NCBI GenBank assembly: GCA_022071945.1
Contig: JAJVIN010000014.1
Coordinates: 1-64,000, forward strand
DNA: 64,000 nucleotides
From: Thermoanaerobaculia bacterium
GTDB lineage: Bacteria > Acidobacteriota > Thermoanaerobaculia > UBA5066
Direction of reading: 5' to 3'
A model generated the notes under the pieces. The model did not search any database and was not told where the DNA came from. It saw only the letters and a list, made by a program, of their open reading frames with translations. Shown here piece after piece: positions 2,466 to 37,490 of this stretch. Each line of letters begins with the position of its first letter. The stretch's first letter is position 1. Both the position numbers and the translations under genes were made by a program.

Positions 2466-5400
2466 TCAGGGCACCCTTTTCGGCAGCCTCGGTCCGTAGT
2501 CCGGGTACTTCGGCCTCTTCAGCCTCACAGGCGGATTCTTCGAGAGCGCCTCCAGCGCGAGCTGGACAGCGCGCTCGAGCTGCGGGTCCTTCCCCTGGCG
2601 GATGAGAGCCGGGTCCTCCTCCACCTCGACGTCCGGAGCGATGCCGGCGTTCTCCACCTCCCACTCACCCTCCGTCCCGTAGAGGCCCCAGCGGGGCGCG
2701 GTGACCGAACCCCCGTCGATCAGCGCCGGGTAGCCTCCGATACCGACAAGGCCGCCCCAGGTCCTCTTGCCGACGATCGGACCGAGCTTCGCCTTGCGGA
2801 AGAGCCACGGCAGGGCGTCGCCCCCCGAACCGGACATCTGGTTGATCAGCATCACCTTTGGCCCGAAGACGGCCTGCGCCGGAGAGACGACGTCCTCTCC
2901 CTCCCGCGAGGCGTTCGCCATCGTCGGTTTCCGCGCGAGGAGGTCGACGATGTAGTCGGCGATGCTGCCACCGTGGTTGAAGCGCTCGTCGACGACGAGG
3001 GCCTCCTTGCCGATCTCGGTGAAGTAGTAGCGGTTGAAGTTGGTGAAGCCTTCCGCGTAGGTGTCGGGGATGAAGACGTAGCCGACCTTTCCGCCCGAAA
3101 GGGCCGCCACCTTCTTCCGGTTCTCCTCCATCCAGGTCCTGAGGCGCAGTCCTCCTTCCGACGCAGCGGGGACGACCGTCACCTGGCGCGAACCGGTCCC
3201 GTCCGCCTTCGGCCCCACGGTGAGGACGGTCTGCTTTCCTGCCGTCCCGAGGAAGAGGCGGTGGATGTCGTCTTCTCCCTTCAGCTCCTGACCATTCACG
3301 GCCAGGAGGAAGTCGCCTTCCTTCACGTCCACTCCGGGCTGCGTCAGCGGCGCCTTCAGCTTCGGGTTCCAGTTTTCCCCCGGGAGAATCCGGGAGATGC
3401 GGTAGCGCCCTTCCGTCACGGTGTACTCGGCGCCGAGGAGCCCGACGGAGACCTTCTCCTGTTTCGGGATCGCTCCCCCTCCGACGTAGACGTGCCCGAG
3501 GACGAGGTGTCCGAGCATCTCCACGAAGAGGCGATTGAGGTCCTCGCGCCCACCGATGCCGTCGACGAACGGCTCGTAGAGCTTCTCGGCCGCGACGAGG
3601 TCGAGGCCGTGCGCTCCCGGGTCGTAGAGGAAGTCACGCTGGATCCGCCACGCCTCGCGGTACATCTGTCGCCACTCCGCGCGCGGATCGACCCAGACCT
3701 CGAGGCCTTCCACCTTGAGGGCTCCGTCCCCCGCTTTCGGCGCCTTCTCGGCCGGGACGAGGAACCAGCTCTTCTTCTGCCTGTAGAGGGTCTTCGTTCC
3801 GTCGAACGAGACGAGGAAGGGAAGCTGACCGCCGTAGACGCCGCTCCCGCCGTCGATCTTCTGTGCGAACTTCTCCGCCTTCCGCGCCTTCAGATCGAAG
3901 CGGTGAACGTCGACCGGAGGCGGGTTGTCGTCATCGAACTCGAGGTAGTCCTCCGCCGCGAGGGCTGTCGGCGCCTGCAGGAGGAAGACGATCCCCTCCG
4001 CTCCGGCCTCGAGCGCGACCCAGTTCGCCCTCTCGACCGGGAGCGCCACGATCCGCTGGTCGAGGCCGTCAAAGTCGATCTTCACCGGTTCCGGCGGCTT
4101 CTTCGCGTCCTTCTCCGCGGCTCCTTTTCCGGCGGCGTCCCTGCTGACTTCGCTCTTCTTCGACTCGCCCTTGCCCGGCTCGCCCGTCGACCCGGGCTTG
4201 GCCGCCTCGGAGCCCTTTCCATCCTTGCCGTCCGCGGCCCCCTCCTCGTCGCTCTCCGGGGCCACAGGGGAAGGGATGCCTTTCCGGAGAACGGCGGCGT
4301 AGAGGCTGCTCGTCACCGGCCGGCTCATGCTCGTCATGTCGAGCCACCCCTGGGCCAGGCCGACGTCCGTGCTGGCGAGAAAGTAGAGGTACTTCCCGTT
4401 CCGGTCGAATCGCGGCGACACCGCATCGCTCCGGCCGTCCGTCACCTGTCGGGACTTCTTCTCCTCGAGGGAGTGGACGAAGACCGCGCGAAGGTGGTTC
4501 GGGAGCTGCTTGACGTACGCAATCCAGCGCGAGTCAGCGGACCATGCCGGGTCGAGGTTCGAGAGCGGCGTGTCGAAGAGGTCGGAGTCGACCTTCGCCT
4601 TGGTTCCTTTCTCGACATCGACGACCCAGAGGATCATTCGCTTATCGGTGAGTGCGATCTTCTTCGAGTCGGGTGAGAAGCGCGGCGCGTAGAAAAACGA
4701 TGGAGGAAGGCCCAGACCGACCTTCCTCACCGGCCCCATCCCGTCGGGAGCGCGCAGGTGGAGCGCGTACTCACCCGACTCGTCGGAGAGCCACGCGACC
4801 CACTTCCCGTCGGGGGAGAACGACGGGTCGCGGTCGGCGACGCCGGGGCTCCTCGTGAGGTTCCGCGCGTCTCCCTTCTCGGCGGGAACGGAGAGGATCT
4901 CGCCCCGGGCCTCGAAGAGGACGCGCTTGCCCGCAGGTGAGACGGCTGCGTGAAGCACCTGCTCGGGCTCGACCTTGCGGAAGCCGGAGCGCACCTGCGG
5001 GAGGTCGGCCGAGATCGTGACCGGGACCGTGCGGGTCGTTCCCGACGCGAGGTCGAGGAGCTTCAGTTCTCCGAACTGGTCGAAGACGATGGCCCCCGGT
5101 CCGGCCGTGGCCGACTGGATGTCGAACCCATCCGCGTTCTTCACGACCTCGCGGACGCCGCCCGTCTTCAGGTCGAAGGCGAAAAGCGTCACCGGGCCGT
5201 TTCGATCGGAGAGGAAGTAGACCGTGTCGCCGACCCAGATCGGCCGCCGGTCGTTCGAGTTCTCTCGCGGGACCTTCACCACCCTGGAGTCGGCCAGGTC
5301 GGCGATCCAGACGGGCGTCGTCTGCCCGCCTCGGTACTTCTTCCACGCGGGCTGCCACTGCGCAAAGGGCACGTAGGCGAGCCGCTTGCCGTCAGGCGAG

Positions 5401-25254: not shown

Positions 25255-26328
25255 TCAGCCGGGGGCCCTCTCCGCCCTCCTCGAAGAGAACCACGCCGAG
25301 GTCTGCGCGAGAGCGGCGCCGAACACGAAGACGAAGATCCCGAAGAAGATCGACAGGAGCGTGTTGCTGTAGGTGTAGGCCCAGGAGATCTGGCCGGGCG
25401 CCGCCCGTTCGAGCCGGGAATGATCGAACTGGATCGAGCCGATCACGAGAAGAGCGAGAAGGAAGCCCGCCAGGAGCGCCCAGGGGACGAACCGGACGAG
25501 ACGCGTGCCCGTCTTGCGCTGCCGCATCCCGAGACGGGAAGAGACGAGGATCAGGATGACGGGACCGAGAAGAAGGGCCAGCCACTGGGACTCCAGGAGA
25601 TCCGGCGGAGGAGCCTGCGCCGTCAGCGCGATCACGTCGGCCGGAAGGTACTTCCAGGTGTCGGACAGAACGTCGCCCTTCTTCTTCAGCTCGGGCTCCG
25701 CCACGGCCTTCCATCCCGGGGGCAAGAGAACGCGGATGTCGATGTTTCCGAACCCGGCCCATTCCTTTGCCGGTGAGAGGACATAGCCGAACTGCCACAT
25801 CACCGTCGGGCTGTTCGTGGCGTAGCGCCCGGGTTCGGCGGCGTAGGCGACCCGGAGCTCGTGGGTCCCCGTCGAGAGGTCCACAGAAAAGCGAAGGTGG
25901 TCCCCGAGGCTCCGCGTCCGGTACGGGATCGGCATCGACATCAGGAGAGGCGGTGTCGCCGTCGGGGGCCGCCAGGCGACGGGTAGGTCGGAATCCGGGA
26001 TCGACACCCGCTCGAAAGGGACGGAGTCGCCGTCGAGCGTGACCGAGGCGGCACCCGGCGCGGAGCCGGCAACGAAGAAGAGCTCGACCTTGCGGGCTTC
26101 CTTGTCGTTGCGCACGCGGTAGACCGCCTCGACCTGGATGTCCCGGCGCCCATCTCTGGCGCCCAGGGGTCTCAGGTCGAATGTGAGCCGCTCCTTTTCG
26201 ATGAAGAGGTCCCGGACCCCGCCGCCGAGCTCTCGCATCGTGTCCCCCGTGATCGCCGGGGACGCCATGTTGGCGAGGGCCGGAACCGCCAGGCTCAAAA
26301 GGAGGATCGGCGCCACTCGGGACAGCAC
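25255..26328 (-). CDS. Exported membrane protein of unknown function
   Basis: From GTG 26328 the 357-residue product has a good signal peptide (LSRVAPILLLSLAVPALA). A beta-rich periplasmic region follows (about 20-230; YRVRNDKEARKVELFFVAGS, STGTHELRVAYAAEPGRY). Three C-terminal membrane helices end the chain (WLALLLGPVILILVSS, VPWALLAGFLLALLVIG, LLSIFFGIFVFVFGAAL). I recognise no family. The frame is open back to an ATG at 26526 that overlaps the upstream stop as ATGA, and a GTG at 26406 is also possible. The extra 66 residues look like translated spacer, so I prefer 26328, without a clear ribosome site. The 26329-26522 stretch would then be noncoding. Confidence 0.65.
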   Translation of the reverse strand: MLSRVAPILLLSLAVPALANMASPAITGDTMRELGGGVRDLFIEKERLTFDLRPLGARDGRRDIQVEAVYRVRNDKEARKVELFFVAGSAPGAASVTLDGDSVPFERVSIPDSDLPVAWRPPTATPPLLMSMPIPYRTRSLGDHLRFSVDLSTGTHELRVAYAAEPGRYATNSPTVMWQFGYVLSPAKEWAGFGNIDIRVLLPPGWKAVAEPELKKKGDVLSDTWKYLPADVIALTAQAPPPDLLESQWLALLLGPVILILVSSRLGMRQRKTGTRLVRFVPWALLAGFLLALLVIGSIQFDHSRLERAAPGQISWAYTYSNTLLSIFFGIFVFVFGAALAQTSAWFSSRRAERAPG

Positions 26329-26522
26329 GACGCGGGTGAGGCAGGGAAGGCGCTCACGGAAAGCACCGAGGAAGGGAATCCCCGTGTATCGGCGAGCTCT
26401 CTTCACCCGCGGCTTCTGCTCGACACATGCATCTTCCTGTGGGTTGTCAGTGGGAGCCTGGACCTTTCGGATGCTGATCGCGCAGTCCTTGGGTCGAACC
26501 CGAGTCGAAAGCGACGGCCTTC

Positions 26523-27260
26523 TCATGACGTTTCGCCCTGCTCACCGGTCACGGCGATGCGGAACCCGAGCCGGGAGCTCACCGTGTCGCGGAAATCGAA
26601 GCTGCGGTACGAGGCTCGCAGCCGAAATCGGTCCATGTCCCACGATCCGCCCCGGACGCACCGGCGATGCTGCCGTTCGGCGCCAGCTGTCCACGCGGAG
26701 CCGTCGGTGGGAGCACCCTCAAAGTCGGGGTGCCAGACATCCGAGCACCACTCCCAGACGTTCCCCGCCATGTCGTGGAGTCCCCAGGGGTTTGCCAGTT
26801 TCCTGCCGACGCAGTGCGTCTGCCCCCCGGAGTTGTCCTCGAACCATGCGTACTGGGTGAGTTGGTTCGCGTCCTCGCCGAAGAAGTAGCTCGATCGTGT
26901 TCCCGCCCGGTAGGCGTATTCCCACTCGGCCTCGTTGGGGAGCCGCACCTCGCGGCCCGAGAGCCGTGACAGCCGCTCGCAGAAGGCGACGGCCTCATCC
27001 CATGTCACCGATTCCACGGGCAGCTGAGGGTCACCTTGAAAGCTGGCAGGGTTGACGCCCGTGATGGCGGCATACGAGCCCTGTGTCACCTGGACGCGAG
27101 CCATCCAGAGAGCCCGTGCGAAGTGGACCGTGTGGATGGGCCCCTCGGGTGCGAAGGGGAGCCCGTCGGCTGACCCCATCTCGAAGGTCCCGGGTGGGAG
27201 CCGTACGAGTTCGATCGCACACCGCGCGCCAGTGTTGCCGTCGACCTCGAGCCAGTTCAT
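26523..27260 (-). CDS. Formylglycine-generating-enzyme (SUMF1) domain protein
   Basis: This 245-residue protein is a single FGE-sulfatase domain: VRLPPGTFEMGSADG, PVESVTWDEAVAFCERLSR, RLPNEAEWEYAYRAGT, WGLHDMAGNVWEWCSDVW, RCVRGGSWDMDRFRLR and RLGFRIAV. The family includes true formylglycine synthases but more often related factors. A Cys lies in WEWCSDVW and others in CAIELV and HCVGRK, but a copper-binding pair cannot be assigned by eye. No signal peptide is seen with ATG 27260. It follows the ATP-grasp gene by 64 bases, and both look less GC-rich than neighbours. A pair of modifying enzymes acquired together is possible. Confidence 0.85.
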   Translation of the reverse strand: MNWLEVDGNTGARCAIELVRLPPGTFEMGSADGLPFAPEGPIHTVHFARALWMARVQVTQGSYAAITGVNPASFQGDPQLPVESVTWDEAVAFCERLSRLSGREVRLPNEAEWEYAYRAGTRSSYFFGEDANQLTQYAWFEDNSGGQTHCVGRKLANPWGLHDMAGNVWEWCSDVWHPDFEGAPTDGSAWTAGAERQHRRCVRGGSWDMDRFRLRASYRSFDFRDTVSSRLGFRIAVTGEQGETS

Positions 27261-27324
27261 CCGGCTAGACTCCGCGCCAGACGAGGATGCACCCCACCAC
27301 CGCTCCTCTTGGTGTGAGCCGCCC

Positions 27325-28152
27325 TCAAGACTCTCGGGACATCGCGAATCCAAAGCTCGCCCATGTCGCCTCCTCGCGAGTCATTCGATACCTGCTGACC
27401 GTCGAGCGCAAGAGCACCGGCAAGAGCCTGTCGAGCCGCGCCCCGTAGGTACCGGAGCTGGGGGGCGGATTGGTCTCGACGATGGCCCAACCTCGGCCAT
27501 CCAGGAGCCCCACGTCCAGGGTCACGGCTGGTGGCAGCGAGACCCTGCTGTCTTGGAGCACGTTACTCGCCAGCGCGAGAGCCTGGTTCACCTCCTCGTC
27601 GTTTGCTCGAAACCCTGTCTGGCTCGTCATGAAAGCTCCGTCCCGGCAGTAGGGAGAACCGGCTCGCACGTGACGGTCGAGGACGAAGAGCCTGAACTCG
27701 ATGCGCCAGCGGACGGGCTCCGCGGCCAGGATCAGAGAGTCTGCGCTCACACCGCGATCGGCGGCCGCCACGGTTGCTTCCAGGTCCTTGCCAGAGAGGT
27801 AGACGCGTGCGGGGAAGTCCTTGCTGTCAGAGGGCTTGAAGAACGTCCTCTCGGTGATCCCGAACGCATCACGGAGCCTCAGAAGCCGGACATCGCGCTT
27901 GCGGTATTCGGCTGGCAAGTCGGCCAGGAAATCGCGCGAGGTGACGAGAGGGACACGGTCGAGGACATGGCAGAGGGTTGTGACATCACGCCAGTCGCCG
28001 TAGATCGCCACGTCGGCGCGGGACCGCAGACCGGCGTTCACGCCCGAGGCCCGGAGCCTCAAGACCTCCCAGTGGCTCGATAGCGCTTCCCTTGCCAGTC
28101 CACCGCTGGAGGCCATTTCGGGAAGCGTCAGAATCAGAGTCGGCACCACCAC
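27325..28152 (-). CDS. ATP-grasp domain protein (DUF4343-like)
   Basis: This 275-residue protein shows ATP-grasp features: FFKPSDSKDFPARVYLSGKD (lysine and phosphate region), VRWRIEFRLFVLDRHVRAGS, and the metal-binding end VTLDVGLLDGRGWAIVETNP with Asp, Glu and Asn. This resembles the DUF4343/ATP-grasp group of uncharacterised ligases often found in accessory loci. Three consecutive GTG codons at the 5' end leave the exact start open. It precedes the FGE-type gene in the same direction and follows the PspA/ABC operon after an 82-base gap. The substrate is unknown. Confidence 0.75.
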   Translation of the reverse strand: MVVPTLILTLPEMASSGGLAREALSSHWEVLRLRASGVNAGLRSRADVAIYGDWRDVTTLCHVLDRVPLVTSRDFLADLPAEYRKRDVRLLRLRDAFGITERTFFKPSDSKDFPARVYLSGKDLEATVAAADRGVSADSLILAAEPVRWRIEFRLFVLDRHVRAGSPYCRDGAFMTSQTGFRANDEEVNQALALASNVLQDSRVSLPPAVTLDVGLLDGRGWAIVETNPPPSSGTYGARLDRLLPVLLRSTVSRYRMTREEATWASFGFAMSRES

Positions 28153-28234: not shown

Positions 28235-29227
28235 CTACCGTCCCGCGCCCGCCGCCAGCCCGCTGAGCATCTGATCCATGCTCGGGGCCAGCGCCTTGAC
28301 GTAGCGCTCGGTCTGCTCGACCTTCTCGACGATCCCTTCCATGGTGGAGGAGATCTCCGACTGGTCGATCTGCGAGGCGCTCATCTGGCCCATGATGACG
28401 TTGAAGGCGTCGGGAAAGGCCATGAGCTGTGCCGAGACCGACTGGTCCCGCTCGCCGCAGGCGACGAGGAGATCCCGCTGCTTTTTCAGGATGTCCATGT
28501 GCCACTGGCGGGCCTGGGCCGAGGCCGGTTCCCTTTCCGCCGCCTCCTGGAGCTCCCGGATCCGCTCGTCGATGTCTTCCAGGAGTTCCTCGAGGCGCGG
28601 CATGGGGGGGCCGAAGCCCTGGCCGGGGAGCGGCGGCGGGATGACGAACCCGCCCTTCTTGCCCTTCTTGCCGGCTCCCGGGTCGCGAACGGGCACGGTC
28701 TGCCGTTGGCTCCCCATCTGGTGGAGGATCCGGAGATAAGTGATCCGCGCCTTCACGAATTGGAGGTAGGCCGTCAACATGTAATCGATCCGCTTGCCGA
28801 TCCCCAGCTCGGTCGTGGCCTCGATCTCGTCACGGCTGTGAGCGAACTGCGTGATCCGGTGCCGCATGTCGAGGAGGCGCCGGTACTCGAAGGCGTAGTC
28901 GGGCATCAGGCCGCCCTTGATCCAGGACGAAAACGGGCCCTGGGCCAGGGTCGCCGAGATCTCCGAGGCGAGGCCTTCCCGCTCCATCTCGACCTTCCGC
29001 AACTCCCGCTCCCTGCTTTCCTCGATCGTCTTGTCGAGCTGCTTTTTCGAGGTCGTGGCGAACAGGACCCACGAGGCGGAGCCGAGCCCCCACAAGATCA
29101 GCGGGAGCGGGTTCCACAGCGCTGCCGAGGCGGCAACGGCCACCGCTCCGCTCACGACGTTCGCCGGGGAGGCCGCGGCGCGCTTGGCTGTCTGCTTCCA
29201 CAGGGTGGCCGGGTCGGGCAGCTTCAT
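28235..29227 (-). CDS. Membrane coiled-coil protein, last gene of the PspA-ABC operon
   Basis: This 330-residue protein has one long or two short N-terminal membrane segments (about 24-58, NVVSGAVAVAASAALW, LPLILWGLGSASWVLFA). An extended helical cytoplasmic part follows. Charged heptad-like stretches (KKQLDKTIEESRERELRKVE, RLEELLEDIDERIRELQEAA, EGIVEKVEQTERYVK) surround a Pro/Gly/Lys-rich linker. I recognise no family. It begins 10 bases after the ABC ATPase stop and is the only member of the block with long cytoplasmic helices attached to the membrane. It could dock PspA filaments or link the AAA ATPase to the transporter; that is inference from architecture. Confidence 0.8.
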   Translation of the reverse strand: MKLPDPATLWKQTAKRAAASPANVVSGAVAVAASAALWNPLPLILWGLGSASWVLFATTSKKQLDKTIEESRERELRKVEMEREGLASEISATLAQGPFSSWIKGGLMPDYAFEYRRLLDMRHRITQFAHSRDEIEATTELGIGKRIDYMLTAYLQFVKARITYLRILHQMGSQRQTVPVRDPGAGKKGKKGGFVIPPPLPGQGFGPPMPRLEELLEDIDERIRELQEAAEREPASAQARQWHMDILKKQRDLLVACGERDQSVSAQLMAFPDAFNVIMGQMSASQIDQSEISSTMEGIVEKVEQTERYVKALAPSMDQMLSGLAAGAGR

Positions 29228-29237
29228 CCCATATGCC

Positions 29238-30062
29238 TCACAGGAGCGGGAACCGCTCGCGAATCTCCTGCCTCACCTTCTGGAACTCGGGCGTGGAAAC
29301 GATGTCCTTTCTCCAGGCCAGGCCCCGCTCGATGAGGTCGTAGGTCGCAACGATCCGGGCTCCGGGGACGATTCTCCCATCCTTGTCCCGGTCCCGGCCC
29401 ATCAGCCAGATGGTGTCGGCCACTTCGATGGCCGCGGTGATGTCGTGGGTGACGACGATGATGGTGTTGAAGTCGGAGATGTCGGCCATCTCTCCGATCA
29501 GCTCGATCACATTCTCGACCTGCACGACGTCGAGTCCGGAAAACGGCTCGTCCATCAACAAGAAGTGCTCGCTGCAGAGGAACTGCTGGGCGATGGCGAC
29601 CCGCTGCCGCTGCCCTCCCGAGAGCTGCGCGGGGAACTTGTGGGCCGCGTCCTCGAGCTTGAAGCGCGTGAGGAACTCCATCGACTTCGCCACGGCCTGT
29701 CCCTTCGAGAGTCCGTTCCGCACGGCCGCGACGACCAGGTTCCCGAGGACGCGCCGGTGAGCGAAGAGCGGGTAGTTCTGGGCGACGACTCCGACCATTC
29801 CCCTTTCGACGGGCTTTGCCTTCTCCCCGATGAGCACCTTGCCGGAATCCGGCCTGTTCAATCCGGCCAGGATGCGGAAGAGCTGGGTCTTCCCCATCCC
29901 GGAAGGAGCCAGGAGGCTGACGACCTGGCCCGTGACCTTTCCGGGCCGCACGATGTCCTTGATCTCGAGATTGACGTCCCGGAGGATCTGCTTGCCCCCG
30001 AGTGCCAGGGAGACCCCCTCGACCTTCAGCAGCGTGGCTCCGAGCGAGTATCCGTCCGGCAT
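29238..30062 (-). CDS. ABC transporter ATP-binding protein (NitT/TauT-like) of the PspA-linked operon
   Basis: This 274-residue ATPase has Walker A APSGMGKT (Ala in place of the first Gly, Met at the fifth position), Q-loop VVAQNYPLFAH, signature LSGGQRQR, Walker B FLLMDEPFSGLD and switch His in IIVVTHDIT. This is the importer-type layout. It lies three bases after the permease and ten before the membrane coiled-coil gene. Together with 30066 and 30879 it forms a complete binding-protein-dependent system. The neighbouring PspA and AAA ATPase suggest a mechanical or signalling role as well as, or instead of, nutrient uptake. Confidence 0.9.
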   Translation of the reverse strand: MPDGYSLGATLLKVEGVSLALGGKQILRDVNLEIKDIVRPGKVTGQVVSLLAPSGMGKTQLFRILAGLNRPDSGKVLIGEKAKPVERGMVGVVAQNYPLFAHRRVLGNLVVAAVRNGLSKGQAVAKSMEFLTRFKLEDAAHKFPAQLSGGQRQRVAIAQQFLCSEHFLLMDEPFSGLDVVQVENVIELIGEMADISDFNTIIVVTHDITAAIEVADTIWLMGRDRDKDGRIVPGARIVATYDLIERGLAWRKDIVSTPEFQKVRQEIRERFPLL

Positions 30063-30065
30063 CGG

Positions 30066-30875
30066 TTACCTCCTCTCCGCCGTCAGGCTCGCGTGCGGAC
30101 AGATGACCTGCTTGAGCCATCCGATCGCGTAGTCCTGAATGAGGCCGACGAAAAGGATCAGGAACTGGATGGCAAACACCTCCGGCAGCTTGAAGTGCTT
30201 GTTCTGGTTCAGGAGCATCGCCCCGACCCCGCCCTCGGAGCGGGAGATCCCCTCGACCATCGTCAGCATCATCCAGCCGATGGCGGCGTTCTGCCGGAGG
30301 ACCTCGATCGCCTGATCGAACGTCCCGAGGACGACGACTTCCCAGACCACCCGCCACTCGCTCATCCGCAGGGTCCGGGCATGGTCGAACTTCTCCTTCG
30401 GGATCTCGGCCACGACAGCCGCCATCGACGTCACGAAGAAGACCGTCATGCCGAAGACGAGAAGCGACAGCTTCAGCGGCCGGCCGCCTCCCACCATCAG
30501 GGTGAAAACGAAGGTCAACCCGATGAGGCCGAGGAACCGTCCCTTCGAGACCGCCAGGGCGATGGGCCGGATCGCGGGGAGGACCGTCAGGTACGAGAGG
30601 ACGAGCGAGATGAGAAGCGTCCAGAACAGGGCTTCGAGGTTCATCCAGAAGCTCGTGATGAGCTCGCGGCCCAGACCTTCGTCGAACCAGAGCCTCCGGA
30701 ACGCTCCGAGGACCTCCACCGGTCTCGGGAGAGCGGCAAATGGCGAGTTGATCCAGATGAGGAGGAAGAGGGCGGCCTGTATCCCGATCACGATGCGAAA
30801 GGCCGCCCTCGAGAGAACACGGTTGGGCGAGAACGCCGCCTTGAGGTCCTCCATCACTCCTTGCGGCAGCCCCAC
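30066..30875 (-). CDS. ABC transporter permease (NitT/TauT-like) of the PspA-linked operon
   Basis: This 269-residue inner-membrane protein has about six hydrophobic segments (IVIGIQAALFLLIWI, LEALFWTLLISLVLSYL, LIGLTFVFTLMVGGG, LSLLVFGMTVFFVTS, NAAIGWMMLTMVEG, IQFLILFVGLIQDYAIGWL). The coupling-loop region is DHARTLRMSEWRVVWEVVV, where the conserved EAA Gly is poorly kept. It is sandwiched with three-base gaps between the OmpA-fused binding protein and the ATPase, so the stoichiometry is probably fixed by coupled translation. It would form a homodimer. Confidence 0.88.
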   Translation of the reverse strand: MGLPQGVMEDLKAAFSPNRVLSRAAFRIVIGIQAALFLLIWINSPFAALPRPVEVLGAFRRLWFDEGLGRELITSFWMNLEALFWTLLISLVLSYLTVLPAIRPIALAVSKGRFLGLIGLTFVFTLMVGGGRPLKLSLLVFGMTVFFVTSMAAVVAEIPKEKFDHARTLRMSEWRVVWEVVVLGTFDQAIEVLRQNAAIGWMMLTMVEGISRSEGGVGAMLLNQNKHFKLPEVFAIQFLILFVGLIQDYAIGWLKQVICPHASLTAERR

Positions 30876-30878
30876 GGA

Positions 30879-32687
30879 TCAGCCCCCGGTCGTTCCGATC
30901 ACGATCTCGACGCGGCGGTTCTGGGCGCGGCCGGTCTCGGTGGAGTTCGGGGCGACGGGGTTCGTCTGACCGTGCGCGAAGACGCGGATACGGCCGGACG
31001 GGAAGTTCACGGGCGCCTTCTGTTCGAGCCACTGCTTGACCGCGAAGGCACGCTCCTCGGAGAGCTGCATGTTCTTGTCCGGATTGCCCTGGCTGTCGGT
31101 GTGGCCGTGGACCTCGACCACCGTCGCGCTCGCGACGAGGAGGTCGTTGAGAAGCTGGTCGAGGTTGCGGTAGGCGTCCGGGGAGAACGCGGCCTTTCCG
31201 CTCTCGAAGTTGATCTGCCACGAGCGGCGGCTGACGACGTTCGTCACCTTCGCGGCCTGCTCGAACTTCGGAACCTCGGCCTGCGTCGTGGGTGCCTGCC
31301 TGGCGGCAAGGGCTTGGATGTATGACGTGTCGAGGACCTCCGTGACCGGCGGGTAGTTCGGGACGAGCTCGGGGTACTGCTGCACGACGATGTCGCCGAA
31401 GACCCTGTACGTGGCGGCAAAGAGGTTCTGCGAGCCCTGCGTCAAGCCGAAGAGAAGCAGGTTGTCGGCCAGGTTGTTCACCGAGGACCCTCCGAGCTCG
31501 ACCATCAGCCCCTGTTTGTCTCGCTCGGTGACGCCCTTGAAGTACTTCTCCCAGTAGGCGGCGTCCTGCTCCTTGTAAACGACGGCGCTGATCTCGGCCG
31601 CTTTCCTGAGAGCCTGCGGGTTCGACTTGATCTGATCGCCCGCCTGGAAGATCGCCGAGAGCATTCCCTCGACGACGGGACGGTTGGCCTTCATCCACTT
31701 GTCGATGCCGATGATGGTGTTCGGCATCTGCGAGCTGTACTCCTTGGTGGAAACAATGGAAACGAGGCCGCCCTTCTTCATCGCGACGTTGACGTCGCCC
31801 GGCGTCCATGTGACGACGCCGTTCACGCAGACCTTCTTCGTCGCGCCGGTTTTCTTCCCCTTCTCGACGACGGGGCGGTCCTCGCAGTAGCCGGCGATGT
31901 ACTTCTCTCCGGCGTCGATGTAGTCGTTGGCGGCCACCCAGTTGAGGCAGTTGGGGTCCCAGGTCTTCTCGTCTGGGTTGTTGCAGATTCCGTTGTCGCC
32001 CAGCCACTTCAGCGCGATGTTCCAGTCACCGTCCCGGAGGTACCCGGCCACCAGTCCTCCCCGTGCCGCCTGAGGGTTCTGCTTCCAGGCCGGCAGACCC
32101 ATGAACTTGTCCTCGCCTCTCGAGTAACCCATCGAGCCGACGACCTTCGCCTGATAGTCCTTGCCGATCTTCTTCAGCGTGTCGTTGACGCCCTTGAGGA
32201 ATGTGGCGGAGCCGTCGCCCATGATGGCGACGAAGTGAACGCCGTTCTTGGGCTGCGCGTTCCCCTTCGAGAGCTCGGTGGCGAAGGCGACGAGCCCCTC
32301 CTGCATCTTGTCCACCATGTCCTCGCGGATGAATTTGAGGTTCACCCCATTGGCGCACATGAGACTCCCCTGGGCGGCCTGGGGACCGCCGTTGGCGAGC
32401 ATGCCCCCCATCTGGGAGTTCCAGGCCCAGACATAGAAACGGACCTCGGTCTTGTCGGTGCAGCCGGGCTCCGAACCGGGGAGCGAAACCGGCGCAGAGG
32501 GAGTCCCGGCCTGGGACCCATCCGGGGCGGCCGGCAGATCGGCCTTCGGCGGAACCTGGGACTCCTTGGTCTTGGCGGCGGGAACGATCTTCTCCAAAAG
32601 ACCAGGAGCGAACCGCTTGATGCTGAAGAACGCCGTCGCGAGGATCGCGATGGCGATGATGGCTTTGGCGAGAGGTGTCAGTTTCAT
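30879..32687 (-). CDS. Membrane-anchored substrate-binding protein fused to OmpA peptidoglycan-binding domain
   Basis: This 602-residue protein has an uncleaved-looking N-terminal helix (AIIAIAILATAFFSIKRF, about 8-26) and a Pro/Ala linker. A periplasmic-binding-protein region (about 80-450; EVRFYVWAWNSQMGG, HFVAIMGDGSATFLKGVN, WTPGDVNVAMKKGG) resembles NMT1/phosphate-type binding proteins. From residue 492 an OmpA C-terminal domain follows. It shows EVHGHTDSQGNPDKNMQLSE, then RAFAVKQWL and GRAQNRRVEIVI, including the Asp and Arg that hold diaminopimelate in OmpA-like domains. Six cysteines in the binding region suggest disulfides. It would be tied to the inner membrane at one end and to the wall at the other. 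A GGAGGAGGG ribosome site precedes the start. Confidence 0.9.
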   Translation of the reverse strand: MKLTPLAKAIIAIAILATAFFSIKRFAPGLLEKIVPAAKTKESQVPPKADLPAAPDGSQAGTPSAPVSLPGSEPGCTDKTEVRFYVWAWNSQMGGMLANGGPQAAQGSLMCANGVNLKFIREDMVDKMQEGLVAFATELSKGNAQPKNGVHFVAIMGDGSATFLKGVNDTLKKIGKDYQAKVVGSMGYSRGEDKFMGLPAWKQNPQAARGGLVAGYLRDGDWNIALKWLGDNGICNNPDEKTWDPNCLNWVAANDYIDAGEKYIAGYCEDRPVVEKGKKTGATKKVCVNGVVTWTPGDVNVAMKKGGLVSIVSTKEYSSQMPNTIIGIDKWMKANRPVVEGMLSAIFQAGDQIKSNPQALRKAAEISAVVYKEQDAAYWEKYFKGVTERDKQGLMVELGGSSVNNLADNLLLFGLTQGSQNLFAATYRVFGDIVVQQYPELVPNYPPVTEVLDTSYIQALAARQAPTTQAEVPKFEQAAKVTNVVSRRSWQINFESGKAAFSPDAYRNLDQLLNDLLVASATVVEVHGHTDSQGNPDKNMQLSEERAFAVKQWLEQKAPVNFPSGRIRVFAHGQTNPVAPNSTETGRAQNRRVEIVIGTTGG

Positions 32688-32722
32688 CTCTTCCCTCCTC
32701 CGGGAGCCAAAAAGTTCGGATC

Positions 32723-32740
32723 CCCGCGGTATCCCGCGGG
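32723..32740 (-). terminator. Hairpin between the AAA ATPase and the OmpA-fused binding protein genes
   Basis: CCCGCGG and CCGCGGG form a perfect 7-bp stem with a 4-base loop. On the minus strand a TTTTT run (32713-32709) follows nine bases later. The U-run is too distant for a strong terminator. An attenuator or processing site lowering or raising the distal ABC genes relative to pspA and the AAA gene is plausible. It occupies most of the 58-base gap, the longest in the operon. Confidence 0.35.
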
Positions 32741-32745
32741 CGACC

Positions 32746-34596
32746 CTATCGGCGCGACCCGACGGTCGCTCGCAACAACCGGAGCCGTGTGTCGAGCTCT
32801 TCGGGGCTCATCCCGGCGTACTTGGGCGGGAGGAGCCGCCGGCTCGAGGCCTCGAACACGGCGAGCAGTTCCATGTATTCCAGGAGTTCTACGTCGCGGC
32901 TCGGGAAATAGTCGTGGGCGGCCTTCACGAAATGCTCCGGAAGAACGGGAGCCTCGCCGCCGGTTTCTCTCGCGGCGTCGTCGTTGGCCATCAGGATGAC
33001 GGCCTCGACATCCGCGTTGCTGTAGCCGATGAGACGCGTGGAGAAACCCTCGCGGATGGCCGTGAAGTCGACGTCGGTCTTGATCCTGTTCTTCTTCACG
33101 AGCGCCCGGGCCACGCCCTCGACCTCCTCCGCCGTCTGGGAGTAGAGGAACGGGATCTTCCTGTCGAGGCGTCCCGCCCGCTTCAGGTCCACGTCGAGCT
33201 TGTCGGGACGGTTGGTCATCGCGACGAAGAGGATCCGGCCCCGGTTGGAGGTGTCGGACATGAACTCCTTGATGCGCGCGATGACGCGCGAGGAGGTGCC
33301 TCCGTCGCCCTCGCCGTCGGTGTTGCCGAAGGCCCGGTCGCCCTCGTCGATGATGACGATGACCTGGCCGATCGCCTTGATGACCGAGAGGATCTTCTCG
33401 AGGTTTCCCTCGGTGGCGCCCACCCACTTCGACCGGAAGTTCTTGAGCTTGATCGTCGGGAGCCCGCACTCCTTGGCGAAGGCCTCCGCCACGAACGTCT
33501 TGCCGGTTCCCATGGGTCCGGTGAAGAGGATCCCCATCGGTACCCGGCTGCGGCGGGCTTCCCGGATGTTCTCCGCCACGACGAGGAGGTCCTTCTTGAT
33601 CTCCTCCATGCCGCCGACCACGTCGAATCCGTGTTCCGGCGTGATGAACTCGACGAGGCCGAAGCACTCGCGCTCGAGGATCTCGCGCTTTCTCTTCGAA
33701 ATGAGGATGTCGGCCTCGCGGCGTGCCCGGTCTGCAGGCGTCTCGGCCGGGGCGGGCGCGAGCTCCTTGACGGTCGGGGCGATGAGGTTCTTGATCTCTT
33801 CGCGCGAGAGGTTCGCCGTGAGGATGGCGAGCTTGTGGGCCCGGGCGGCGGCGTCTTCCGACCCGCCGAGGAGCCCCGTGATGAACGCCTCGCGGTCGAA
33901 CGAGTCGGCCTCGCTCTGCGGAGGCGGAGAGAGGATCGAGCTGATCTGGCTCACCTTCAGCCCGGCCGTCACCTCGGCAAAGCGCTCCGCGTCCTTGGCG
34001 GTCAGCGTCGGGTCGCTCAGCTGCGTCGCGCGCCGTCTCGTCTCGCGGTCGGGCATCGGGATGTCCACGACCGCGACCTTCGGGTTGCTGACGATCTTCG
34101 GTGAGAGCTCCGAGAGGTTCTCGGCGATCAGCAGGACGACGTTGTCGCCCTTCTCGATCCCTGGCAAGAAAGACCACCGGTGGAGCGTGATGATCGAGGC
34201 CCGGTCGGCGTCGGCCTGGAAGGACGGGTCCCCGCCCGGAGCGATCGCCTCGGCGTACTCGATGATGACCGCCACCTTCTTGCCGGTGGTCAGGATCCGC
34301 TCGAGGGCGGCGAGCTGCTTGTCACGCCCCGGAGGATTGAGGATTTCCTCGAGTCCCGAGACGGGGTCTTTCGGTCTCTTCGTGTACCGGATGCCCGTCG
34401 CCAGGTTGAAGATGGCGACGGTGTCCTTCGACTCGGCGAGAAAGGCCGTGAGGAAGTCGGCGAGGGGAACCATCCGGTCCTTCTCGACGACGTCGTCGAA
34501 GACGTTCCCGTGGAGGACGAAGATCGAGGACTCCCCGCGGAGGTATCTCCGGCGAAGCTCCTCGGCCCACGCCGGGATTTGTTTCGAGTCCGCCAC
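32746..34596 (-). CDS. AAA+ ATPase with N-terminal degenerate module, partner of PspA
   Basis: This 616-residue cytosolic ATPase starts at GTG, with AAGGGGCAAGG just upstream. The C-terminal module (about 310-560) is a complete classical [17 protein letters not shown], Walker A GPMGTGKT (360-367), Walker B VIIIDE (413-418), sensor-1 AMTNRPD and arginine fingers RAGRLDR. The N-terminal part (1-280) keeps a similar layout ([39 protein letters not shown]) but has no P-loop, like the inactive module of Ycf46-type proteins. The C-terminal 60 residues are helical. It follows pspA by nine bases. AAA ATPases of the Vps4 type remodel ESCRT-III polymers, so PspA is its likely substrate (inference). Confidence 0.93.
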
Positions 34597-34605
34597 CCTT
34601 GCCCC

Positions 34606-35319
34606 TTACATCGTCTTCTGCGGCTGTGCCTGGGCGGCCGCCGCGCGCTTGGCCTTCAGCTCCGCCAGCTGCTGCTTGGCCTGGACGTCTCCGGCCGTCG
34701 TCTTCAGGGCGGCCAGGCGGGAGTCGAGCGAGGTCTCGGCCAGCTCCTTGCCCAGGTTGGCGGCGGCGACGGTCGTCTTGATGTGCTCGCGGACGTTGTC
34801 GAGGGCTTTCACCTCGGCGTCGACCGAGAGGCCATCCAGCTGCTCCTGGATCTTGATCCGGGCCTGGGCGGACTGCATCCGGGCGAGCATGACGTCGCGC
34901 TCGGCCTTCAGCTTCTTGATCTCGCCCTGGACGGACATCAGCGATGTCTTCGCGGATTCCGCGTCCTTGGAGGCGGAGTCCATGTCGGCCGTCAGTTCCT
35001 TGACCTCGGCCTCGAGCTGGTTCTTTTTCTGGAGCAGGATGACCGCGAGGTCGTCCTGGTTCGTCTCGACCGCCGCATTCAGCTCGTGGTCAGTCTGTGC
35101 CAGCTCCTTGTTGGCCCGCTTCAACCGCTCGTCGATGTCCTCGCGGCGGCGGATGATCGCGGCGGTGGCGTTCTTGAGCTTGGTGTATTTCTCGACCATC
35201 GAGTTGATGGCGTTCTCGTAAGCGATTTCAGGGTGCTCCTTCTCGATGTCGGAGATGAACAGGGAGAGGAAACCCTTGAAGAGATTCTTGACGCGGCTGA
35301 AGAAGTTGACGTCGCCCAT
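34606..35319 (-). CDS. pspA: PspA/IM30 family protein (ESCRT-III superfamily)
   Basis: This 237-residue protein is almost wholly helical coiled coil, as expected for PspA/Vipp1. Hallmarks include [20 protein letters not shown] at the N-terminus (amphipathic membrane-binding helix plus), [38 protein letters not shown] and [17 protein letters not shown]. It ends in an Ala/Gln-rich tail. PspA proteins polymerise on damaged inner membrane and belong to the ESCRT-III superfamily. The usual partners PspB/PspC are absent. Instead it lies nine bases before an AAA ATPase gene and at the head of an ABC operon. AAGGAAAGG provides the ribosome site. Whether it is a stress protein or a dedicated part of the transporter complex is open. 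Confidence 0.92.
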
Positions 35320-35358
35320 CGGCCAAACCTTTCCTTCTCGAGTTGGGTTCCTGGGGTG

Positions 35359-36063
35359 TTATTTCGTTTCCGTTCCCGCCGGCGGCGTGGACGGATCAAT
35401 GAGTTTCGGTGATTCCCTGACGACCCTCTGGACCGCCTCCAGGCCGAAGAACTCGAGGATCCCCTGGACCTCGAGCTTCTTGGCGTTGCAGGTGGCGACG
35501 ACGGTCGCCTGTTCGATGGCGGATTCGTCGATGATCCCCCGGATCTTCCGGATTTCGTCCTCCAGGGCGGCGATTCGCTCGTCGGCCTGAGCCTTCAGGG
35601 CGGCGGCTTCCTGCCCCTTTCCCTTCTGGTACGAGTCGAGAGCCTGGATTTGCTCGACACCGCTCTCGATGATCTTGTCGATCGGGATGCCGAAGGCCTT
35701 GAGGGAGACCTCGACGATCTGCTTCTTGACGGCCGCGTCGGCCTGGGCCGGGAGCCCCCGGACGAGGTCCGAGGCGCGCTGCCAGAGCTCCCGCTCCTGC
35801 TGGTCGACCCCGAAGGCCTCGAAGACCTTGACGAAATCGACGCCCCCCACCGCCGAAGGCAGGTCCTTGATCGGGACAACCGCGGGCGCCGCTGGCGCCG
35901 CGGGGGCGGGGTCGGAAACGCTCGGAGCCGCGGGGGACGGATCGGACTTGGCGCTCCGGATCTCCGCCAGGACGTCCTCGTCGATGCCCGGCGCGGCCGC
36001 GGTCTCTTCCTTGACGACGAACCAGCCCAGAACCGACTGGCCCCAGTTCTTCTTATCGCTCAT
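35359..36063 (-). CDS. Unknown protein heading the PspA-AAA-ABC operon
   Basis: This 234-residue protein has no signal peptide. It starts with a short aromatic segment (WGQSVLGWFVVKEE). An Ala/Pro-rich linker (about 43-65) and a helical domain follow (VDFVKVFEAFGVDQQERELW, VKKQIVEVSLKAFGIPIDKI). A coiled coil (EAAALKAQADERIAALEDEI) leads to FFGLEAVQRVVRESP. I recognise no family. AAGGTG precedes ATG 36063. It is 39 bases upstream of pspA, so it probably binds PspA or the AAA ATPase as an adaptor. The helical make-up supports a protein-binding role, but nothing shows one directly. Confidence 0.78.
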   Translation of the reverse strand: MSDKKNWGQSVLGWFVVKEETAAAPGIDEDVLAEIRSAKSDPSPAAPSVSDPAPAAPAAPAVVPIKDLPSAVGGVDFVKVFEAFGVDQQERELWQRASDLVRGLPAQADAAVKKQIVEVSLKAFGIPIDKIIESGVEQIQALDSYQKGKGQEAAALKAQADERIAALEDEIRKIRGIIDESAIEQATVVATCNAKKLEVQGILEFFGLEAVQRVVRESPKLIDPSTPPAGTETK

Positions 36064-36090: not shown

Positions 36091-37431
36091 TCAACTCGGT
36101 GCTCCGATTCGGCCGTCAGATAGGTCCGAGAGGATGGTTTCCGCTGCTTGACGCCCCATCTTGACCGCATAGTTCTGGCCGCGGTCCTCCGGGTAGATCT
36201 GGGCCATCGACGCCGAGTAGAGGCCCGAAAGCTCCGTCCGCACCTCGGGGAGCGTCTCCGAGTAGCGGGCCGGGATGATGGGCTGGGCGTACTCGGCCCG
36301 GAAGAGATGCTTTTCGAGGACCTTCGCCTGAGCGAGCGCGGGCATCATCTTTTCCAGCGCGGGGAGGTAGATCTGCCACAGGTCGGAATCCCGCATCGTC
36401 CACTTCGGGTCGTCCGGCAGGACATAGTTCGAGATGTAGATGACGTGGTGCCCGCCGTACCGCTCCCTCGGGATGTAGTTCGTGTGCTCGATGACGCCGC
36501 CAAACGGCATCTGGGTATCTCCGACGTTCGTCCAGTAGTACTTGGAGAGAGACCGGTCGAGGATCAGGACGGGACACAGGGCGTGCGTATAGCGCACCTT
36601 CCTCCAGCGGTCCCGGAGCGCATCCGGAAGGTCGGGTACCAGGTTGAGGAACTCGGGGATCGCCACGGTCGACAAGACGAGATCGAACGTCTCGCTGCCC
36701 CCCTTGGCCGTCACCTCGTAGCCCCCCGCGGCCCTTCTCACGAGCTTGACCGGCCGGGTGGGCCGAAACTCGCCGCCCCGCTCGCCGAGGCGCTTCAAGA
36801 GGGCGTCGACGGCCCGGCCAAACGATCCCTTCATGTAACCGAGGCGCTCGCCCAGGCCCGTCTCGTCCCTCGAGCGGGTCCTCAGAGCGATCTTGCCCCA
36901 GAGCCAGACGAGCCCGATTTCTTCCCAGTGGCGTCCGTACTTCTGCCGCAGAAGAGGTCCCCAGACCTCTGCCAGGGCCCGGCCATACCCGTTCTTCCGG
37001 AACCAGTCGACGGCGGTCTCCGCCTCGAGCGGCTGCCACCTGGGGTTGTGGCGGAGGGCCAGGGTCGAGAGGACGAACTCCAGACGGCCCCTCACTCCGA
37101 GCGGGTGGAACTTCAGGAGAGAGAACGGTGTCCCGAAGTCCCACAGGCGGCCGTGCGAATAGAAACCCATCTTCGACGGGAGCCACTCCAAGGCGTCGCC
37201 AAGGCCGAGATCCCGGGCGAGGGAGACGTAGTCCCGGTCGGAAGTGAAGAGGTGGTGGTAGAAGCACTCGAGGGGTTCGCCGCCAACCTTGAAGGTCCCG
37301 ACGAGGCCGCCCGCCTCGGGATAGCGCTCGTAGACGACGGCCTTCTGACCGGCGGCCGCCAGCCGGTCGGCGGCGACGAGCCCAGTCAATCCGCCCCCGA
37401 TGATGGCAATGCGTCGGGCGTTGTCTGGCAT
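36091..37431 (-). CDS. FAD-dependent amine-oxidase-type oxidoreductase
   Basis: This 446-residue protein opens with the dinucleotide-binding motif RIAIIGGGLTGLVAADRLAA and AVVYERYPEAGGLVGTF, typical of protoporphyrinogen-oxidase/phytoene-desaturase-like flavoproteins. The C-terminus has the second FAD contact (GLYSASMAQIYPEDRGQNYA). In many polysaccharide or lipid loci such proteins are annotated only as NAD(P)/FAD-dependent oxidoreductases; the substrate is not clear. ATG 37431 is chosen over an upstream start that would add nine residues. It ends 27 bases before the 234-aa gene of the PspA block in the same direction and is divergent from a desaturase. Confidence 0.88.
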   Translation of the reverse strand: MPDNARRIAIIGGGLTGLVAADRLAAAGQKAVVYERYPEAGGLVGTFKVGGEPLECFYHHLFTSDRDYVSLARDLGLGDALEWLPSKMGFYSHGRLWDFGTPFSLLKFHPLGVRGRLEFVLSTLALRHNPRWQPLEAETAVDWFRKNGYGRALAEVWGPLLRQKYGRHWEEIGLVWLWGKIALRTRSRDETGLGERLGYMKGSFGRAVDALLKRLGERGGEFRPTRPVKLVRRAAGGYEVTAKGGSETFDLVLSTVAIPEFLNLVPDLPDALRDRWRKVRYTHALCPVLILDRSLSKYYWTNVGDTQMPFGGVIEHTNYIPRERYGGHHVIYISNYVLPDDPKWTMRDSDLWQIYLPALEKMMPALAQAKVLEKHLFRAEYAQPIIPARYSETLPEVRTELSGLYSASMAQIYPEDRGQNYAVKMGRQAAETILSDLSDGRIGAPS

Positions 37432-37490
37432 GGACGTTGACCCCTCGAAGGATCGCACGGCCCGGGCGTGCCGGGACGTTCTATAAGATC

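Follow-up and report, generated by a model that had tools for sequence, protein, structure and literature searches.

A conserved gene cluster combining PspA, an AAA protein and an ABC transporter, with a candidate motor-binding tail on its PspA

Gene content of the cluster

The window analysed here, the whole 64,000-nucleotide stretch (G000:C14:1-64000), comes from a draft genome of 6.17 Mb, and its closest relatives are Acidobacteriota. It contains a cluster of seven genes, designated A to G, which combines a PspA/IM30 family protein, an AAA protein and an ABC transporter. The seven open reading frames all lie on the minus strand, and the coordinates and gaps (exactly 39, 9, 58, 3, 3 and 10 bases) given in the initial annotation of this DNA were all reproduced. 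In the order of transcription, A-pspA-aaa-D-E-F-G, the genes are:

35359..36063, minus strand: gene A, 234 amino acids, family unnamed; no Pfam match, conserved family
34606..35319, minus strand: gene B, PspA/IM30 family protein, 237 amino acids; Pfam PspA_IM30, tail ...PQKTM-COOH
32746..34596, minus strand: gene C, AAA protein, 616 amino acids; Pfam AAA, motifs
30879..32687, minus strand: gene D, membrane-anchored periplasmic binding protein with OmpA-like domain, 602 amino acids; Pfam OmpA, N-terminal helix
30066..30875, minus strand: gene E, ABC permease, BPD_transp_1-like, 269 amino acids, about 5 hydrophobic helices; weak Pfam match
29238..30062, minus strand: gene F, ABC ATPase of importer type, 274 amino acids; Pfam ABC_tran, motifs
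28235..29227, minus strand: gene G, 330 amino acids, predicted membrane hairpin and coiled-coil helices; predicted structure, conserved family

Gene B matches PspA_IM30 (PF04012) above its cut-off and over nearly its full length (1.5e-19), which places it in the PspA/Vipp1 branch of the ESCRT-III superfamily, and it is the only PspA match in the whole draft genome. It shares this domain with the PspA of the canonical Psp response (PspF-PspABC), but reaches only 46.9 bits against the cut-off of 242.95 of the canonical PspA model TIGR02977, and the operon of the window contains no pspB, pspC or pspF. The AAA gene lies directly beside it (PF00004, 5.8e-27, residues 356-483; gap of 9 bases), and an ABC ATPase, a permease and an OmpA-domain binding protein are present in the same operon.

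Operons of this type, joining PspA, a double-module AAA protein, an ABC ATPase, a permease and a PBPB/OmpA protein, are reported by Ravi et al. (2024, mSystems; PMC11237479), where an ATP-dependent membrane remodelling linked to solute transport is proposed. The cluster had initially been put forward as a candidate undescribed machine; this qualifier has to be dropped, since that paper already contains, as comparative genomics, both the operon type and the same membrane-remodelling idea. No experimental study of a PspA-AAA-ABC operon was found in the literature searched. The window shares with the published operons the PspA, the AAA protein, the ABC ATPase, the permease and the solute-/peptidoglycan-binding protein. 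The AAA protein is described there as having two modules, the N-terminal copy being inactive, and the N-terminal region of gene C may correspond to that copy. The window differs by its rarer ABC type and by the order A-pspA-aaa-D-E-F-G. In the section of the paper on these operons, there is no mention of genes A and G, of the PspA tail or of the two exchangeable ABC modules presented below. Transmembrane-bearing Snf7 homologues are mentioned in some operons; G could be one of these, but the comparisons given below did not confirm it. What the window contains is thus a variant, with the rarer ABC module and a rearranged gene order, of a real, conserved and already outlined system.

Conservation of the neighbourhood

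Seven family profiles were built from relatives and searched against 80 named loci, found with an alignment of the AAA protein, and against loci of class relatives. Partners on the same strand within 9 kb were counted in the 44 well-flanked loci, in which the contig extends 7 kb or more upstream of the AAA gene and 1 kb or more beyond it downstream. A pspA gene was present in 33 of them, the binding/OmpA protein in 30, gene G in 28, both E and F in 28, and all seven families in 24. The arrangement is therefore not due to chance, as it is conserved across genomes. These are nearly all metagenome-assembled and belong to the Acidobacteriota, Myxococcota, Krumholzibacteriota, Eisenbacteria and Planctomycetota. 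A linkage of the ABC genes to pspA and aaa limited to this single genome would have spoken against the initial annotation; it was found instead to recur across phyla.

The commonest order is A-pspA-D-E-F-G-aaa, and aaa directly follows pspA in the window and in locus L064. Reduced loci were also observed, comprising A-pspA-aaa (L084), pspA-aaa (L098, where the contig begins at this point), A-pspA-G-aaa (L066) and pspA-G-aaa (L194 and L198). Since some loci hold less than the full set, the core of the system seems to consist of pspA, G and aaa, to which gene A and the ABC unit are frequently added; the ABC part in particular is optional, because pspA-G-aaa can stand alone in L194 and L198.

The same association is observed at the scale of whole genomes, with two Fisher tests that both ignore phylogeny. 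The 61 nearest genomes comprise 21 with both AAA and PspA, 4 with AAA only, 2 with PspA only and 34 with neither (2.1e-10). Among 149 good genomes of the phylum, PspA was found in 19 of the 20 AAA-positive ones versus 27 of the 129 AAA-negative ones (1.4e-10); in 14 of these 20, aaa and pspA share a contig and are no more than about 7 kb apart.

Several loci have an individual layout. In L046 (genome G020), E, F, G and AAA follow one another in order, with no PspA match. Two features stand out in L078, at 752-1777 and 4598-5380: a second AAA-family match upstream of the operon, and a gene G on the opposite strand inside it. The AAA gene has no or one detected partner within 9 kb in L096, L101, L104, L107, L108, L116, L119, L120, L124 and L125, which belong to the Myxococcota, Planctomycetota, Eremiobacterota and others.

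A conserved C-terminal tail on PspA

PspA is a polymer-forming member of the ESCRT-III superfamily that remodels membranes, and the AAA ATPase Vps4 extracts ESCRT-III subunits; in archaea and eukaryotes, the region behind helix 5 carries a MIT-interacting motif (MIM) (PMC8281802; PMC11746142). An equivalent motor in bacteria is stated to be an open question (Liu et al.; PMC8281802; PMC11746142). The C-terminus of the linked PspA proteins was found to be conserved in a manner relevant to this question. Gene B ends in KTM, as does the PspA of its clade: over 42 linked PspA proteins of this clade, the entropy of the last three positions is 0.16, 0.28 and 0.53 bits, and that of the preceding linker 1.1-2.5 bits. 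In a more distant clade, the tail consists of [KR][TSDEQ][MLI]GP followed by a few residues, as in KDMGP, KEIGP and KTLGP.

Defined as [KR][TSDEQ][MLI], either at the C-terminus or followed by GP, the tail motif is present in 54 of 56 linked PspA proteins, and the two exceptions, in L117 and in the first of the copies in L123, resemble artefacts of the reading frame or of duplication. Phylum controls gave the motif in all six further PspA proteins from AAA-positive genomes, four of them with pspA and aaa non-adjacent, and in none of the 23 from AAA-negative genomes. G026 and G041, both AAA-positive, each contain a canonical PspA paralogue from which it is also missing, which brings the totals to 60/62 AAA-associated PspA proteins versus 0/25 others. 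The AAA protein and a tailed PspA occur together in genomes G158 and G179, for example. Every linked PspA of the loci added later (L199-L204) carries the tail, except one readthrough copy in L203. An exception to the rule is L146 (genome G070), a linked A-PspA-G-AAA fragment whose PspA has no tail motif; it comes from an incomplete survey and was left out of the 60/62 count. As far as the literature searched shows, the association of tail and AAA protein is new, and this pattern of conservation makes the tail a candidate grip for the AAA motor.

Tandem pspA genes, with an AAA gene fragment between the copies, occupy positions 8998-12717 of L123 and 6613-10332 of L203, the first copy being without the tail motif.

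The AAA protein

The C-terminal module of gene C is a classical AAA module. It contains a Walker A motif (GPMGTGKT, at residue 360), a Walker B motif (IIDEGD) and the motifs TNRP and RAGRLDR, together with an aromatic pore loop 1, KWVG (residues 390-393), which is invariant in all 12 aligned members, some of them at about 35% identity. The module aligns best with those of the CDC48/VCP type. No sigma-54 activator domain, as in PspF, was matched by Pfam in gene C.

No Walker A motif is found in the N-terminal module (about residues 1-240), either in gene C or in the 12 aligned members, and these 240 residues have no PDB match by sequence. Its published reading as a degenerate AAA copy (PMC11237479) was not confirmed by profile comparison, which gave no support for an AAA module in this region; as a copy of the C-terminal module, it was rejected with a hhalign probability of 1%. 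In the two-module AAA ATPase of the initial annotation, the C-terminal module is borne out by Pfam and motifs, the AAA nature of the N-terminal half being putative.

Proteins distantly related to gene C, at 26-33% identity, are encoded among hypothetical genes on large plasmids of Aneurinibacillus and Paenibacillus (L050 and L051). These plasmid relatives in the Paenibacillaceae were set aside as carriers of the system, no pspA or ABC genes being annotated around them.

The ABC unit and its exchange

Gene D combines a single N-terminal hydrophobic helix (residues 5-23) with an OmpA domain (PF00691, 2.6e-18, residues 494-591). This OmpA-like peptidoglycan-binding domain aligns with solved OmpA domains and has the conserved motifs HTD and LSxxRA, in which D531 is near-invariant and R546 invariant among 24 relatives; in domains of this kind, these residues bind diaminopimelate. 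The substrate-binding part matches no Pfam family and its own profile gives no PDB match, so that, of the membrane-anchored binding protein with an OmpA domain predicted initially, the anchor and the OmpA domain are borne out and the binding part has no family to be assigned to. Gene E matches BPD_transp_1 weakly (2.7e-4, below its cut-off), and gene F is a clear ABC ATPase (ABC_tran, 4.9e-23) with Walker A, LSGGQRQR and LLMDEP motifs.

The ABC genes of the window have a history of their own. Compared with the counterparts in most genomes of the same family, its A, PspA and AAA proteins reach about 42-85% identity, its D, E and F proteins only about 22-37%. This D-E-F unit represents a rarer ABC type, called here type 1, common to L077, L078, L064 and L089. 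In the tree of the ABC ATPase, the window and these four loci form one clade (100/99), and the well-supported branches of the AAA tree force at least three changes of ABC type; unlike ABC units must therefore have joined the same core more than once. From these sequence comparisons, the ABC part is exchanged on a fixed PspA/AAA core, and this exchange is new as far as the literature searched shows. The binding protein is fused to OmpA in both types. The binding domains of type-2 relatives are NMT1-like (1e-11 and 4.7e-11), NMT1 being the nitrate/taurine/sulfonate class, and a mixed profile matches the taurine-binding protein 6ssy (1.4e-9). Although identity to gene D ranges from 18 to 59%, ten binding-domain positions, including an SxGxD motif and W294/P296, do not vary in either type, and may reflect a shared ligand class.

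Proteins A and G

Genes A and G, of 234 and 330 amino acids, belong to conserved families that match no Pfam family. Gene A, usually located directly upstream of pspA, has a conserved N-terminal segment (KxWGxTVLGWFVV), a disordered Pro/Ala-rich stretch and then helices, the longest at residues 128-206. AlphaFold2 models based on family alignments gave for A one long helix, with disorder over the N-terminal third (mean predicted local distance difference test, pLDDT, 85.6; predicted template modelling score, pTM, 0.57), and for G a short helix, a hairpin formed by two hydrophobic helices (21-37 and 41-59) and long helices (85.7 and 0.73). Foldseek searches with both models returned nothing at E 0.001, and the best VIA-align Z-scores, 11.2 for G and 6.5 for A, are at the level expected of any helical bundle. 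Two relationships were considered and found no support. An ESCRT-III paralogue in G, although still conceivable, is supported neither by Pfam, Snf7 being absent from the listed matches of 47 members of the family, nor by profile comparison with PspA or Foldseek, and no ESCRT-III entry occurs among the VIA-align structures listed. Similarly, profile comparison gave no relation of A to PspA, and the structure matches of A are weak.

Limits of the cluster

A gene for a flavin adenine dinucleotide (FAD)-dependent amine oxidase (36091-37458, minus strand) ends 27 bases before gene A. It is present in 8 loci, the closest of which also share the neighbouring desaturase and NtrC genes; kept only in a few close relatives, it was rejected as a cassette member and attributed to local synteny. 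The transcript may start at this gene, outside the module. Downstream, on the same strand (25255-28152), lie genes for a R2K ATP-grasp protein (27325-28152), a protein with an FGE-sulfatase domain (26523-27353) and a 423-amino-acid protein without Pfam match (25255-26526). An extension of the cassette in this direction was rejected as well, these genes having almost no or no conservation beside it. A sigma-70 promoter scan found no promoter-like site, and a terminator scan gave 15 terminator-like sites, compared with 7.5 on average after shuffling; neither defines the limits of the transcript.

Interpretation

These observations can be assembled into a conserved bacterial PspA-AAA system working like ESCRT-III/Vps4, in which the AAA protein would extract PspA by its tail and would be coupled to a peptidoglycan-tethered ABC importer. 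PspA would polymerise on the inner membrane. Recruitment of the AAA protein would depend on G, a membrane protein with coiled coils, as an adaptor, with A perhaps in a similar role. The AAA protein would engage the short conserved tail (KTM-COOH in the window) and thread PspA through its KWVG pore loops, so that the polymer is remodelled or recycled. The D-E-F unit, with its binding protein fixed to both inner membrane and peptidoglycan, would take up or sense a small solute and thereby connect the condition of the wall with the PspA/AAA core. To judge from the sequence comparisons, this model is about evenly poised between right and wrong; most of the weight lies on the PspA-AAA part, and the role proposed for the ABC unit carries less. 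The initial proposal of a PspA polymer, its ATPase and a peptidoglycan-linked ABC complex fits the evidence, except that the ABC complex is no obligate part: it is absent from L194 and L198 and has been swapped between lineages. Damage repair, sensing and lipid movement are candidate functions.

Several points weigh against this model. The AAA family occurs without a detected pspA nearby in 11 of the 44 loci, and AAA-positive genomes without any PspA match exist (G020 and G045); a different ESCRT-III-like protein may replace PspA in L046 of the former and in the latter. The PspA tree requires three changes of the tail label, that is few independent events, so the association of tail and AAA protein is partly shared descent, and the form of the motif was fixed partly while viewing the data. 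The AAA module scores higher with CDC48 (83.8 bits) and FtsH than with archaeal CdvC (53.6), all below the cut-offs, and no MIT domain was matched in gene C by a Pfam scan at E up to 0.1; recognition would therefore differ from that of Vps4. As for the ABC unit, some loci do without it, and only genomic evidence connects it with the core. The mechanism as a whole is deduced from sequence.

The position of the ABC genes between pspA and aaa in most loci (A-pspA-D-E-F-G-aaa), and the gaps of 3, 3 and 10 bases joining D-E-F-G in the window, would also suit an assembly or quality-control pair for the importer, in which the AAA protein unfolds or extracts damaged subunits, PspA stabilises the membrane, and the transporter is the purpose of the system and not its sensor. 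This explanation is unlikely, as pspA-G-aaa occurs without ABC genes (L194 and L198), one core is combined with two dissimilar ABC modules, and the conserved tail, looked for in PspA only, sits on that protein. The exchangeable and facultative character of the ABC unit would also be accounted for if a NitT/TauT-like importer with a wall-tethered binding protein merely shares an operon with an envelope-stress response because one stress induces both, without physical coupling. Even so, the same combination is repeatedly retained across phyla despite shuffled gene orders, and the binding protein is still an OmpA fusion in the ABC units that were swapped in, which makes a mere sharing of the operon rather unlikely.

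The role of PspA itself could be read differently. PspA binds and regulates PspF, an AAA protein unrelated to gene C (literature cited in PMC8281802), and the AAA module of gene C is closest to CDC48; the AAA protein might accordingly be an unfoldase with many clients, and PspA its membrane-recruiting adaptor instead of its substrate. However, a threaded substrate or a docking peptide would be expected to show just such a tail, conserved and free at the C-terminus behind a flexible linker, and gene C has no match to the sigma-54 activator domain of PspF. This last alternative appears very improbable, and extraction of PspA by the AAA motor is preferred here.

Compared with the ESCRT-III/Vps4 system (Cdv in archaea), the cluster similarly encodes an ESCRT-III-superfamily protein together with a classical AAA ATPase with aromatic pore loop, and its ESCRT-III-type protein has a conserved C-terminal peptide after a flexible linker. 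It differs in that gene C is without MIT match, has instead a putative second, apparently inactive module and is closer by score to CDC48 than to CdvC, and in that the PspA tail consists of three residues (or xxxGP) and not of a MIM helix. The importer-type permease and ATPase and the NMT1 matches of the relatives' binding domains recall the NitT/TauT importers (TauABC, SsuABC), from which the unit differs by its membrane-anchored, OmpA-fused binding protein, and by a binding domain that in the window has no family or PDB match alone. ESCRT-III/Vps4 genes linked to an ABC-type, ProX-like substrate-binding protein are also known from the archaeal Meth_adaptin loci, but there Vps4 and ESCRT-III are archaeal and no PspA or OmpA domain is reported (PMC11188069); the two probably represent a parallel association. 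A bolder proposal, which we hold only tentatively and with some doubt, is that of a true bacterial equivalent of Vps4: a dedicated AAA motor that would recognise PspA by a tag of three C-terminal residues, or by the xGP form of this tag. Such recognition would have an origin separate from that of the MIT/MIM pairing in archaea and eukaryotes, and the motor would be held at the membrane by G and plugged into interchangeable wall-tethered ABC sensors.

Through the exchangeable ABC module, membrane remodelling in bacteria would be linked to the sensing of the wall or of solutes. With a specific tail of only three residues, which is present together with the motor and absent elsewhere, the question of the bacterial motor becomes open to a simple binding and disassembly experiment.

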